Source: Microlunatus sagamiharensis
Lineage (GTDB): Bacteria; Actinomycetota; Actinomycetes; Propionibacteriales; Propionibacteriaceae
Assembly (NCBI RefSeq): GCF_900105785.1
Contig: NZ_LT629799.1
Span: 4,340,001-4,404,000, forward strand
DNA: 64,000 bases
Reading direction: 5' to 3'
Of this stretch, positions 1 to 39,503 are shown piece after piece (the first letter of the stretch is position 1; each line of letters begins with the position of its first letter). The notes under the pieces are model-generated. The model worked only from the letters and a program-made list of their open reading frames with translations. It did no database searches and was not told the DNA's origin. The position numbers were made by a program, and so were the translations under genes.

Positions 1-343
1 GGTGGATGCCCAGGTCCTGCAGGGCGGCGGCGGCCAGGCTCGAGGTGAACCCCTCCTGGCAGAGCACGACGACCTCGAGGTCGTACGACGCGATCGGCAG
101 GGCCGCGTCGCTCTGCGGGTCGAGGCGCCACTCGAGCACGTTCCGCTCGATCACGAGGACGTCGTCGGGCCCGCCCTGCACGGCGCGCTGCGCGGCCGGA
201 CGGATGTCGACGACGACCGCACCGGCCGCACGGGCTGCGACGGCCTGCGCCGGGGTCAGCCGGTCGAGGCGGGAGCGGGCGTCCTCCAGCACGTCGGCGA
301 TGCTGCGGCGCCGGGCCAGGGGAGGGGCGGCGAGCGCGGTCAC
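1..343 (-). CDS. Rhodanese-like domain protein (partial, C-terminus off the window)
   Basis: A rhodanese-fold sulfur-handling protein. About 114 residues are visible and the C-terminus runs off the left edge. The GTG start at 343 overlaps the stop of the upstream cysteine dioxygenase gene as GTGA, so the two are translationally coupled. A VVVDIRP strand lies near residue 48, and the active-site loop CQEGFTSS supplies the likely persulfide-forming Cys, a variant of the usual CRxGxRS. Cysteine dioxygenase followed by a rhodanese is a common actinobacterial pair, so a role in cysteine or sulfide turnover is inferred. The true substrate is unknown. Confidence 0.85.
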   Translation of the reverse strand, partial: MTALAAPPLARRRSIADVLEDARSRLDRLTPAQAVAARAAGAVVVDIRPAAQRAVQGGPDDVLVIERNVLEWRLDPQSDAALPIASYDLEVVVLCQEGFTSSLAAAALQDLGIH

Positions 344-813
344 CAGGCCACCCCCGCCAGGCGCGACTCGACCAGGTCGAGGCGGTCGCCCTCGCGGACG
401 TAGCCGTTCATCCGGGTGAGCGCCGGCGCGTACACGTGGATGCTCACCGCCGGCTCCAGGCCGGTGTTGGTGACCTTGTGGATGTGGCGGGTGCCGAAGG
501 GGCGCAGCGCGCCGGTGCCCAGCGAGCGGGTCTGCGCCACGACCGCCGAACCGTCCGGCTGCAGCCGGGCGTGCTCCTCGGTGAGGGCTCCGCGGACGAC
601 GACGAACGCGCCCGCGCTGCCGCCGTGGTCGTGCCAGTCGGTGCCCTGGCCGGGCACCCAGGTCAGCAGCCAGGCCTCGTGCTCGGGGGTGAGGGCGAGC
701 CGGGCGTAGAAGCGGGAGACGGGGTCGTAGTCGACCAGCGGCTCCCAGAGGTGGGTGGCCTCGCCCAGGCGGGTCGCGGTGGCGGCGAGGTCGGCGAGAT
801 GGCGTGCAGGCAT
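340..813 (-). CDS. Cysteine dioxygenase (cupin, CDO type)
   Basis: A 157-residue cupin that should oxidise L-cysteine to cysteine sulfinate with a mononuclear iron. Metal ligands are visible in WHDH (HxH) and in the later HIHKVTN. The position that is Cys in mammalian CDO is Gly in HDHGGSAGAF, as in bacterial enzymes, and a VYAPAL segment supplies the conserved Tyr. The ATG at 813 is preferred over an upstream in-frame start because AGGAA lies about 9 bases before it and the family begins near this point. It overlaps the downstream rhodanese gene by 4 bp. A short leader ORF and hairpin lie upstream, so expression may respond to cysteine supply (inference). Confidence 0.88.
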   Translation of the reverse strand: MPARHLADLAATATRLGEATHLWEPLVDYDPVSRFYARLALTPEHEAWLLTWVPGQGTDWHDHGGSAGAFVVVRGALTEEHARLQPDGSAVVAQTRSLGTGALRPFGTRHIHKVTNTGLEPAVSIHVYAPALTRMNGYVREGDRLDLVESRLAGVAW

Positions 814-900: not shown

Positions 901-981
901 CTAGAGGCGCGTGGTCATTCGACACACCGAGCTCGCCGTGCGGCGCAGGTCGACGTGTCGGCGCTGGTGCAGCGTCCTCAT
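901..981 (-). CDS. Leader peptide upstream of cysteine dioxygenase (26 aa)
   Basis: This small ORF reads ATG to TAG in 26 codons, preceded by a strong AGGAGG 10 bases upstream and a possible -10 TACTGT at 1016-1011. The peptide carries the core RRHVDLRRTASSVCR. This resembles short actinobacterial ORFs annotated as putative leader peptides before sulfur genes, whose single late Cys is thought to sense cysteine supply. A second peptide with the same core lies at 38044-38127, before the thiosulfate sulfurtransferase. The ORF ends 87 bases before cysteine dioxygenase, and a hairpin lies between them. The start and motif are seen directly; the regulatory role is inferred. Confidence 0.75.
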   Translation of the reverse strand: MRTLHQRRHVDLRRTASSVCRMTTRL

Positions 982-36806: not shown

Positions 36807-37511
36807 TCAGCCCGCGTTGACGCGGGCGCCCTCGCGGCCGGACTCGTCGGCCTGGGTGACGAAGCGGTAGCCGACGTTGCGCACGGTGCCGATGACGGAC
36901 TCGTACTCGGGGCCGAGCTTGGCGCGGAGGCGCCGCACGTGCACGTCCACGGTCCGAGTGCCGCCGTAGTAGTCGTAGCCCCAGACGTCGCTCAGCAGCT
37001 GCTGGCGGCTGAAGACGCGGCCGGGGTGCTGCGCGAGGTACTTGAGCAGCTCGAACTCGGTGTAGGTGAGGTCGAGCTGGACCCCGTTGAGCTTGGCGCT
37101 GTAGCCGGCCTCGTCGATGACGATGTTGCCGCTCTGGATCAGCGGGTCGACCCCGGTCTGCGCGACCGGCGTCATGGCCAGGCGGATCCGGACGTCGACC
37201 TCGGCCGGGCCGGCGGTGGCCAGCAGCAGGTCGTCGAAGCCCCAGTCCGCGCTCAGCGCGGCCAGGCCGCCCTCGCTCGCGATGACCAGGAGCGGCGCCT
37301 CCTTGCCCGTCGTCTCGATCAGGCGGCACAGCGACCGTGCACCGGCGAGGTCGCGGCGCGCGTCCAGCAGGATCAGGTCCGCGGCGGGGGCGTCGAGCAG
37401 CGCCGTCGCCTCGGCCTGGGCCACCTTCACCTGGTGGGGCAGCAGCTCGAGCGCGGGCAGGATCTCCGCAGACGCGTGCATGTCGTTGGTCAGCAGGAGC
37501 AGTGTGGCCAT
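36807..37511 (-). CDS. glnR: GlnR-type OmpR-family response regulator
   Basis: A 234-residue regulator of nitrogen metabolism in Actinobacteria. An atypical receiver occupies about 1-105, with [10 protein letters not shown] holding the single conserved Asp. A winged-helix DNA-binding domain follows from about 135 ([20 protein letters not shown] and [18 protein letters not shown]). The sequence [20 protein letters not shown] and the C-terminal [12 protein letters not shown] match Streptomyces GlnR. ATG 37511 is preferred over an upstream in-frame start because GAGGAG precedes it. No partner histidine kinase is adjacent, as expected for GlnR. Near mshD and a MoaD/ThiS gene, as in mycobacteria. 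Confidence 0.93.
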
Positions 37512-37621
37512 GAGGGTCTCCTCGACGGTCGGGCCGCACCCGTCGGCCTGGGTCGAGAGGCCGACGGACCGCACCGGGACCGATGCAGCGTTGTCTCGGT
37601 GCTGGGCGGGAGAATATCCCA

Positions 37622-37876
37622 GTGGCTGAGGTGACCCTGAACTTCTGGGCCGGGGCCCGTGCTGCCGCCGGCACCCCCTCCGAGAGCGTCGAGGCGTCGA
37701 CCGTGGCGCAGGCGCTCGAGGTCGTCCTCGACCGTCACGCCGACGACCGCTTCACGCGTGTGGTCAGGGCAAGCAGCCTCCTGGTCGACGGGGTGAGCGT
37801 GTCCGGCGACGCCCTCGGACGGCCGCTCGAGGGGCGGTGCACGATCGAGGTCCTGCCCCCGTTCGCGGGTGGGTGA
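37622..37876 (+). CDS. MoaD/ThiS-family sulfur carrier protein
   Basis: An 84-residue ubiquitin-fold sulfur carrier. [13 protein letters not shown] at the start and the C-terminal PPFAGG give the Gly-Gly that is adenylated and thiocarboxylated in this family. It could serve molybdopterin, thiamine or cysteine synthesis; no moaE, thiG or cysM adjoins to decide. GTG 37622 is the start because it begins right before the first beta strand. Divergent from glnR and followed by the leader-peptide/thiosulfate sulfurtransferase operon, which may supply the sulfur (inference). Confidence 0.88.
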
Positions 37877-38043
37877 GCGGGTCCTCGGCCCTCGCGGAGG
37901 TGGCCGGCAGGCGTACGGGATGTGAACGACTTCACGCGATCAGACGTCGGATCCACGCTCAGCGTCTCGCATGCCGGACGCAGGTCTCGCTCATCGGGAC
38001 GCCCACTCACGCCCCGGCGGGCTCTCGTCGTACGGTTGCTGCC

Positions 38044-38127
38044 ATGACGAACACGGGTGCGCTGCCGCTCGTCCGCCGCCGCGCGGTCGACCACGGCCGA
38101 ATGCGCTCGTCGCTCTGTCGGGCCTGA
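38044..38127 (+). CDS. Leader peptide upstream of thiosulfate sulfurtransferase (27 aa)
   Basis: ATG 38044 to TGA 38127, 27 codons, following a -10-like TACGGT (38031-38036) by 7 bases, so probably read from a leaderless mRNA. The peptide has RRRAVDHGRMRSSLCRA near its end. It shares RR-x-VD-x-x-R-x-x-SS-[VL]-CR with the peptide at 901-981 before cysteine dioxygenase, although the DNA around them is otherwise unrelated. A hairpin (38144-38180) begins 16 bases after its stop. Coupling of its translation to the downstream sulfur genes is inferred from position and motif. Confidence 0.7.
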   Translation: MTNTGALPLVRRRAVDHGRMRSSLCRA

Positions 38128-38143
38128 TCCCGGTGCCCTGACC

Positions 38144-38180
38144 GGCCCGTCGTCCGCAGCGTCCTCGCTGCCGTCGGGCC
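38144..38180 (+). terminator. Attenuator-like hairpin after the sulfur leader peptide
   Basis: GGCCCG (38144-38149) pairs with CGGGCC (38175-38180), and the inner GCAGCG (38156-38161) pairs with CGCTGC (38166-38171) over a TCCT loop. It lies 16 bases after the leader stop and about 120 bases before the sulfurtransferase start. The rest of 37877-38302 holds a small GTGAA-CGAC-TTCAC palindrome at 37922-37935 and no further gene. Confidence 0.45.
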
Positions 38181-38302
38181 CGCGCGCTCCTGCCGCGCAC
38201 CGCACCCGTACGCCCCCCGCCGCACCTCCGGGTCCCGCGTCCCAACGCGCCCGACCCGGGCACCGCAACCCGCACAGCCGCAACCGCAACAGGAGATCGC
38301 TC

Positions 38303-39151
38303 ATGAGCACGTCTGAAGTCCTCGTCGACGCCGACTGGGTCGCCGAGCACGCGTCCGACAGCAACGTCGTCCTGGTCGAGGTCGACGAGGACACCACCGC
38401 CTACGACGGCGGCCACATCGAGGGCGCCATCAAGCTGGACTGGAAGAAGGACCTCCAGGACCCGGTGCGGCGCGACTTCGTCAACCGCGAGCAGTTCGGT
38501 GCGCTGCTGTCCGAGCGCGGCGTCTCCAACGACGACACGGTCGTCCTCTACGGCGGCAACAACAACTGGTTCGCCGCGTACGCGTACTGGTACTTCAAGC
38601 TCTACGGCCACGGCGACGTCAAGCTCCTCGACGGCGGCCGCAAGAAGTGGGAGCTCGACGCCCGCCCGCTGTCCAGCGAGACCGTCACGCGTCCCGCGAC
38701 GCAGTACGAGGCCGGCGAGCCCGACCTCTCGATCCGCGCGTTCCGCGACGAGGTCGTCTCGGCGATCGGCAGCGACGCGCTGGTCGACGTGCGGAGCCCC
38801 GACGAGTTCGCCGGCCGTCTGCTCGCCCCGGCCCACCTCCCGCAGGAGCAGGCGCAGCGCGGCGGGCACATCCCGACCGCGGTCAACGTCCCGTGGAGCA
38901 AGGCGGCCAACGACGACGGCACCTTCAAGTCGGCCGACGACCTGAAGAAGCTCTACGGCGACGCCGGCCTCGACTTCGGCAGCGACATCATCGCCTACTG
39001 CCGCATCGGTGAGCGCAGCGCGCACACCTGGTTCGTGCTGCACGAGATCCTCGGCCAGGGCAACGTCAAGAACTACGACGGCTCCTGGACCGAGTACGGC
39101 TCCCTCGTGGGGGTCCCGGTCGCCGTGGGCGACGAGCCCGGCTCGGTCTAG
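38303..39151 (+). CDS. Thiosulfate sulfurtransferase (two-domain rhodanese, CysA2/SseA type)
   Basis: A 282-residue two-domain rhodanese that transfers sulfane sulfur from thiosulfate to thiol or cyanide acceptors. The inactive N-domain contains VEVDEDTTAYDGGHIEGAI and VVLYGGNNNWFAAYAYWYF. The active C-domain has LVDVRSPDEFAG and the catalytic loop YCRIGERSAHTWFVL with the Cys that carries persulfide. ATG 38303 follows AGGAG at good spacing. It forms an operon with the DUF1416 gene 49 bp downstream, the same pairing (cysA2-sseC) as in mycobacteria. A leader peptide and hairpin precede it. Confidence 0.93.
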   Translation: MSTSEVLVDADWVAEHASDSNVVLVEVDEDTTAYDGGHIEGAIKLDWKKDLQDPVRRDFVNREQFGALLSERGVSNDDTVVLYGGNNNWFAAYAYWYFKLYGHGDVKLLDGGRKKWELDARPLSSETVTRPATQYEAGEPDLSIRAFRDEVVSAIGSDALVDVRSPDEFAGRLLAPAHLPQEQAQRGGHIPTAVNVPWSKAANDDGTFKSADDLKKLYGDAGLDFGSDIIAYCRIGERSAHTWFVLHEILGQGNVKNYDGSWTEYGSLVGVPVAVGDEPGSV

Positions 39152-39200: not shown

Positions 39201-39503
39201 ATGTGCGGTTCCACCAAGGGCGGCCTGAGCATCGCCGGCGTCGACACGTCGAAGGAGGCGGTCATCCAGGGCCGCGTCCTGCGCGACGGCGAGCCGGTCG
39301 GCAACGCGTACGTCCGTCTGCTCGACCCGTCGGGCGAGTTCACCGCCGAGGTCCCGACCTCGGCGACCGGGCACTTCCGGTTCTTCGCCCACGACGGCCG
39401 CTGGACCCTGCGCACGCTCGCGCCGGGAGCCAAGGCCGACCGCCAGGTCGTCGCCACGGTGGGTTCGGTGGCCGAGGTCGACGTGGAGCTCACCGCCGCC
39501 TGA
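39201..39503 (+). CDS. DUF1416 (SseC-type) protein
   Basis: A 100-residue protein. It begins MCGSTKGG, retaining the Cys at position 2, and then forms a beta-rich transthyretin-like or carboxypeptidase regulatory-like fold (VIQGRVLRDGEPVGNAYVRL, then TSATGHFRFFAHDGRWTLRT). It accompanies the rhodanese gene in many Actinobacteria, and in mycobacteria it is called SseC, but its biochemical role is unknown. A sulfur acceptor or chaperone for the rhodanese is a guess, with Cys2 a candidate site. Convergent with dtd. Confidence 0.88.
   Translation: MCGSTKGGLSIAGVDTSKEAVIQGRVLRDGEPVGNAYVRLLDPSGEFTAEVPTSATGHFRFFAHDGRWTLRTLAPGAKADRQVVATVGSVAEVDVELTAA

Follow-up and report, generated by a model that had tools for sequence, protein, structure and literature searches.

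A leader ORF with a single, conserved UGU codon before a sulfurtransferase operon of Microlunatus: a candidate cysteine sensor

The sulfurtransferase locus and its leader ORF

We analysed a stretch of 64,000 nucleotides (hereafter the window) from the genome of Microlunatus sagamiharensis, which consists of 4.4 Mb in one contig; judged by the sulfurtransferase, its nearest named relative is Microlunatus flavus (94% identity). A short leader ORF is found in the window ahead of a two-gene operon, and a gap of 175 nt separates the stop of the leader from the start of the sulfurtransferase. The features of this locus are as follows.

38031..38036, + strand: TACGGT, putative -10 box, 7 nt to the ATG of the leader
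38044..38127, + strand: leader ORF, from ATG 38044 to TGA 38127, 27 codons, encoding MTNTGALPLVRRRAVDHGRMRSSLCRA
38116..38118, + strand: UGU, codon 25, sole Cys codon of the leader and proposed sensing codon
38128..38290, + strand: untranslated stretch, C-rich and G-poor in base composition, possible Rho loading region
38144..38180, + strand: GC-rich hairpin without a U run, starting 16 nt past the leader stop
38291..38296, + strand: AGGAGA, Shine-Dalgarno of the sulfurtransferase
38303..39151, + strand: thiosulfate/3-mercaptopyruvate sulfurtransferase (CysA/SseA type, rhodanese domains; PF00581, 111.4 bits, two stretches)
39201..39503, + strand: DUF1416 protein, second gene of the sulfurtransferase operon (PF07210, 131.5 bits)

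The sulfurtransferase also scores 124.6 bits against NF008557, which is under the cut-off of that model (250), and the DUF1416 protein is presumably the one named SseC. On the upstream side, the leader is adjoined by a weakly MoaD/ThiS-like gene (37583-37876), which is divergent from the gene of a GlnR-type response regulator (36807-37574, - strand; PF21695 N-terminal domain).

According to the first-pass annotation, the leader at 38044 has no Shine-Dalgarno sequence, lies 7 bases after TACGGT and looks leaderless, and this description is borne out at the level of motifs. Inspection of the upstream sequence revealed no purine-rich Shine-Dalgarno before ATG 38044, and in 69 of 93 leaders a TANNNT box precedes the start that was chosen by 6-9 nt, as compared to 14 of 4650 control positions (the 93 are the 95 loci described below minus two leaders without a recognisable start). 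A sigma-70 scan that requires a -35 box called no promoter at 38031..38036. The TANNNT spacing thus lends strong, motif-level support to leaderless initiation, and the transcript of the sulfurtransferase operon probably starts at or beside the leader ATG.

Judged by the conservation reported in the next section, ORF 38044-38127 is real and not a chance ORF, and it corresponds in Microlunatus to the leaderless cysteine leader that precedes cysA2 in mycobacteria (Ms5788A family).

Conservation of the leader and its sister leaders

All 95 loci scanned have a leader of this type ahead of the same sulfurtransferase, 94 of them with E <= 1.1e-7 according to profile A1, whose E-values lean towards a match since the profile includes leaders from the scanned loci. 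The 95 loci comprise 75 from outside the genus (taken from the best 80 of 584 relatives) and 20 from Microlunatus; the duplicate loci L019-L023 and the paralogue L119 were left out, and the paralogue L120 lay outside the scan. No leader was found upstream of L119. Using an independent profile (A2), built from 11 leaders from outside the genus and without any Microlunatus sequence, we found that 38068-38124 is the best match of the entire 4.4 Mb genome (E 4.3e-5), and that the other two leaders of the genome (see below) have E-values of 0.024 and 0.031, not separated from matches within large ORFs (0.041 and 0.047). A strict regular expression, which was built after the peptide had been seen, was run over 101 upstream regions of no more than 700 nt; it matches in 73 of them and on none of their 101 reverse strands. 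A shuffle control gave hits in 8 of 2020 shuffled versus 48 of 101 real upstream regions (11 of the 101 loci were wrongly oriented in that scan). We note that in several lineages (at L025, L028, L035, L052 and similar loci) the leader lies about 500-700 nt upstream of the sulfurtransferase, with space for another small gene, which may be a thioredoxin-like gene as in M. tuberculosis.

Over the 17 core codons, pN/pS is 0.20 in the 20 Microlunatus genomes, with changes found mostly at third positions, and the columns L, R, D, R and C are invariant among 18 aligned leaders. At the level of sequence, these comparisons demonstrate both the position of the leader and the amino-acid constraint that its core is under.

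Leaders with the same core are also found before other genes. One lies at 901-981 of the window, ahead of a cysteine dioxygenase gene:

901..981, - strand: sister leader, MRTLHQRRHVDLRRTASSVCRMTTRL (NF042934, 35.2 bits, cut-off 27), its sole Cys codon being TGT
340..813, - strand: cysteine dioxygenase after the sister leader (PF05995, 66.8 bits, scored on 340-828)

That the 901-981 peptide has the same core as the 38044 peptide had been claimed from the letters and is confirmed here. This leader is preceded by AGGAGG, hence it is not leaderless; the cysteine dioxygenase starts at 813, leaving a gap of 87 nt, and is followed by a rhodanese-domain sequence. A genome-wide search for the core together with its downstream genes, the check proposed in the first-pass annotation, yields three leaders, all before sulfur or cysteine genes, i.e., the sulfurtransferase operon, the cysteine dioxygenase, and a sulfite-reductase/sulfate-assimilation operon. 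The three places have E-values of 9e-13, 8e-9 and 7e-8 in the A1 search of the genome and the next match has 0.03 (all three leaders are in the profile). The leader of the sulfite-reductase operon (1357163-1357216) scores 14.8 bits against NF042934, amid noise. The sulfite-reductase gene of this genome carries NIR_SIR domains, and the ORFs after it have two PAPS-reductase domains (read as cysH and cysD), an APS-kinase domain (cysC), a GTP-binding domain (read as cysN) and a CbiX domain (read as sirohydrochlorin chelatase). As for the start of this leader (L005; G000:C1:1357154-1357225, - strand), ATG, GTG and TTG are absent just before the core. An ACG codon there has TATACG 7 nt ahead of it, and one has to go back about 26-27 codons to reach the closest in-frame GTG and ATG.

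All 20 Microlunatus genomes (the window's included) contain the sulfurtransferase leader. Besides the sulfurtransferase leaders and the two sister leaders of the window's own genome, there are 25 further A1 matches at E <= 0.01 in the 20 genomes, including 15 before sulfite reductase, 6 before cysteine dioxygenase, and four weak ones (E 0.003-0.01) before neither of the two. These counts (20 of 20 genomes, and 21 of the 25 further matches) support the earlier proposal that a single family of leader peptides is spread over dispersed sulfur genes; in its outline this idea of a regulon is correct, though already described.

The 901-981 leader, a cysteine leader with a Shine-Dalgarno, precedes an enzyme that degrades cysteine (dioxygenase, 340-813). 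The sign of control may be reversed at this leader, because it would be metabolically pointless to induce the dioxygenase when cysteine is scarce. In a Microlunatus relative (L163; G006:C7:27000-31000), the dioxygenase leader ends in TGT TGA, with the proposed sensing codon touching the stop, and a Cys-stop ending is also seen in some of the NF042934 family matches of other genomes.

The conserved UGU codon

The conserved Cys, nine residues past the Asp, is encoded by TGT in 77 and by TGC in 8 of 85 distinct sulfurtransferase leaders (excluding identical leader DNA and L076, a doubtful leader with E 2.4e-4 and without a terminal Cys); these and the following UGU counts come from sequences related by descent and are not independent events, and Fisher tests on them exaggerate the strength of the bias. 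All 8 TGC leaders are from Nocardia; in these, TGT encodes a Cys that comes earlier in the run. TGT is found in every row of Microlunatus, of 16 other named genus groups and of the 9 unassigned MAG leaders, and at least one TGT is present in every leader except the doubtful L076. Within Microlunatus, all 20 sulfurtransferase leaders have TGT for the conserved Cys although other third positions vary, and TGT also encodes it in 21 of 21 sister leaders (15 of 15 before sulfite reductase and 6 of 6 before cysteine dioxygenase); each of the three leaders of the window's genome has TGT as its sole Cys codon. Among 69 NF042934 matches elsewhere in the phylum, 59 of which come from eight genomes of one genus (the window's own match is omitted), TGT encodes the last core Cys in 63 and TGC does so in 4, while 2 lack it. 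We note that L234 (G147:C1:1355838-1355891) and L230 (G212:C1:6969491-6969544) have the Cys four residues earlier (VCSA), encoded by TGC; they are exceptions to the UGU rule and possibly belong to another class.

The remaining Cys codons of the 85 leaders are TGT in 25 and TGC in 128 cases, and the other two-fold pyrimidine-ending codons end in T in 33 and in C in 129 cases. Background TGT:TGC counts are 3:89 in the window, 24:215 in the genus, 64:413 in the other loci and 49:337 in the phylum set, i.e., a UGU share of 3-13% in background genes (taken with a simple ORF filter and not from annotated genes). From 14 codons before to 10 after it, the conserved Cys codon is the only one with a T-dominated third position (1.55 bits). 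The base that follows the conserved TGT is C in 79 of the 85 leaders, and by sequence a short nucleotide signal, UGUC, could also account for the codon bias.

We also looked at RNA pairing. As a general cause of the invariant U it was rejected, with a mean pairing probability of 0.65 as compared to 0.68 in the surroundings, and so was a pairing between this U and the stop codon (mean probability 0.05). Changing the U to C makes the predicted fold stabler in 52 of 98 leaders, less stable in 35 and equal in 11. The change costs 1.8 kcal/mol in the window and 1.4 kcal/mol in the nearest sister, and in these two the predicted folds make RNA pairing a possible cause of the U.

Among the 45 tRNA genes typed in the genome, there is one tRNA-Cys, with anticodon GCA, which reads UGU by wobble. 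Attenuators have been described as needing a particular choice among synonymous codons, by way of selective charging of isoacceptors (PMC1183508, accessible part); since the genome has a single tRNA-Cys, selective charging of isoacceptors cannot explain the UGU. Work cited in the accessible part of PMC4046918 has the tRNAs for Cys and some other amino acids reading NNC faster than NNU, and the NNC bias is given there as greatest when one tRNA serves both codons with a G facing the third position. On the whole, we think it fairly probable that the sensor in actinobacterial cysteine leaders is a UGU at a fixed place, which would be read by wobble, be the slowest and be the first to starve, and that the other (mostly UGC) cysteines would not be the sensor.

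If so, the identity of the codon, and not the number of Cys codons, would set the sensitivity, and one silent base change should alter cysteine sensing. This would also be a codon-choice rule for attenuation beyond isoacceptor charging, in which one synonymous base tunes the sulfur regulon across many actinobacterial genera, and the UGU rule could be used to find unannotated sulfur leaders that current protein models miss in GC-rich genomes. In the literature consulted, which leaves aside the central 2020 paper (PMC8764745), we did not find the UGU rule reported; that paper may contain it. The codon rule may thus be the new part, the leader device itself being already known.

Proposed mechanism and comparison with known systems

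Our main reading, to which we give a probability of roughly 0.8, is that the 38044 ORF is a cis-acting cysteine-sensing leader of the sulfurtransferase-DUF1416 operon, for which we infer the stall, the response to cysteine and the output from mycobacteria. As the motif and the conservation suggest, a leaderless transcript would start at the ATG and a 70S ribosome would translate the peptide. With Cys-tRNA scarce, the ribosome would halt at the single UGU (38116-38118), and the stall would change the behaviour of the C-rich RNA and the hairpin downstream, thereby allowing expression of the sulfurtransferase operon. With cysteine plentiful, the ribosome would reach the stop and leave, and expression would be attenuated. 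In 79 of 94 leaders, 3-5 codons separate the last TGT from the stop, and in the window two do. A stalled ribosome would be held short of a terminating one by about 12-18 nt (9 nt in the window), and the signal would then have to be read just downstream. By analogy, the sensing step is likely in the Microlunatus leader. Several observations speak against parts of this reading: the window peptide reaches no NCBIfam cut-off, the window leader has a single Cys codon and not a run, and the cysteine dioxygenase target has the wrong sign for a response to starvation. The lack of an intrinsic terminator, the shifting place of the hairpin and the masking results given below count against it as well. 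The reading would extend the cysteine-control device of mycobacteria to Microlunatus, and it suggests that one Cys codon is enough in this lineage.

Hairpins had been noted after both leaders in the first-pass annotation. The one after the 38044 leader (38144-38180) stands, being strong as compared to shuffles (z -3.07), and the one after the 901-981 leader does not, as the region there is no better than shuffles (z -0.12). A stem is predicted at the same place, with changed base pairs, in the two nearest relatives, in which that region is no stabler than shuffles (z -0.67 and 0.19), and the place is not kept across most of the genus (mean z -1.0 over 20 genomes). No Rfam match was found in 37900-38400 up to an E-value of 1. 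An intrinsic terminator, i.e., a classical transcription attenuator, was rejected, there being no terminator-like site with a U run in the leader region.

As for the output, we lean slightly towards relief of Rho termination over unmasking of the Shine-Dalgarno. Rho would load onto the C-rich gap after departure of the leader ribosome, whereas a ribosome paused at the UGU near the stop would cover the loading site, a scheme to which we give a little less than an even chance. In the E. coli tna operon, a ribosome held near the stop covers the Rho loading site. P. acnes belongs to the same family as Microlunatus. The tna logic is named in PMC1262725 (2005), the accessible part of which predicts cysteine leader peptides for Mycobacterium and P. 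acnes and proposes a Rho mechanism for them, in what its authors call a rather weak prediction. In the window, the gap to the sulfurtransferase is 51% C and 27% G, and C exceeds G in 18 of 20 Microlunatus gaps and in 42 of 42 other gaps (gaps of 60-320 nt, i.e., all 20 from Microlunatus and 42 of the 75 others), an excess larger than that of upstream DNA; the locus has no intrinsic terminator, which also fits Rho. However, base composition taken without a dedicated Rho-site model is weak evidence, the 33 remaining gaps of the 75 were too long for the measured range, and an upstream stall would also leave most of the gap bare.

Translation attenuation as the output is possible, and we regard it as tentative: the leader RNA would hide the Shine-Dalgarno of the sulfurtransferase and a stalled ribosome would free it, as in M. 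smegmatis, for whose cysteine genes translation attenuation is reported (PMC13236596, accessible part). When the RNA up to the Cys codon is masked, the predicted accessibility of the Shine-Dalgarno goes up in 13 of the 20 genomes, but it goes down in 5 and is unchanged in 2 (the Shine-Dalgarno was wrongly placed in two of the 20 rows, L114 and L115), and masking just the first 30 nt, as a control, likewise raises it in 11 (down in 7, unchanged in 2). The folds argue against simple sequestration in the window, where the accessibility hardly moves (0.37 to 0.40) when the RNA up to the UGU is masked.

It is unlikely, in our view, that the RR-x-VD-x-x-R part of the peptide, and not the Cys codon, stalls the ribosome on a sulfur metabolite by nascent-chain arrest. 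Such an arrest would fit a constraint that reaches beyond the cysteines (the pN/pS of 0.20 and the invariant columns given above), but a mechanism of the peptide alone leaves the synonymous third-base U unexplained. Action of the peptide in trans as a small protein, with which the conserved sequence would also agree, is very improbable given that the leaders lie in cis before sulfur genes, three per genome and with the same three targets in the genus. That the ORF is short and its peptide has no NCBIfam match might suggest a chance ORF without function, a reading refuted at the level of conservation by its presence at all scanned loci, the codon invariant in 20 of 20 genomes and the promoter spacing.

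We return to cysteine sensing by the leader and compare it with known systems. Conserved leaderless, Cys-rich small ORFs precede cysA2 and nirA in mycobacteria, and ribosomes occupy the uORF before M. smegmatis cysA2 (both in the accessible part of PMC4633059). The accessible parts of two citing papers (PMC9031893 and PMC13236596) describe cysteine-dependent attenuation in M. smegmatis, and Canestrari et al. 2020 is cited for the mycobacterial system in PMC9094748, PMC13236596 and PMC9031893. More distant likenesses, again from what was accessible of the papers, include uORFC-8-2 before cysS in Rhodobacterales (PMC8632094), in which a uORF with Cys codons controls a Cys-related gene, but with an intrinsic terminator, tandem Cys codons and UGC dominant; and the leu attenuator of S. 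typhimurium (PMC1183508), in which the identity of the regulatory codon among synonymous codons matters, but for a reason (isoacceptor charging) inapplicable with a single tRNA-Cys. The candidate leaders of Mycobacterium and P. acnes (PMC1262725, accessible part) are from the same phylum, with Cys codons near the stop and no intrinsic terminator; unlike the window leader, they are given as having runs of Cys codons and as controlling the cys operon.

The closest relatives are two NCBIfam families. NF042934 (cis_reg_atten, 'putative leader peptide'), which at E <= 1e-4 has matches in at least 16 of 296 actinobacterial genomes (up to 29 candidates scored per genome), has the same core and counts the 901-981 peptide as a member by score, but its model does not recognise the 38044 peptide (no match; cut-off 27). 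The Ms5788A family (NF042933, cut-off 45) shares with the window leader its place before the same sulfurtransferase, the leaderless start, and the R-R-x-V-D-x-x-R core followed by a Cys near the stop, but it has a run of Cys codons where the window leader has one. The Micromonospora leader of the same gene scores 61.1 bits against this model and the sister-species leader L101 15.8 bits; the window peptide gives no match at E up to 10 and stays under the cut-off, and a search of the window's genome with NF042933 misses the 38044 ORF. The 38044 leader is a member of the known device by position and design, not by score.
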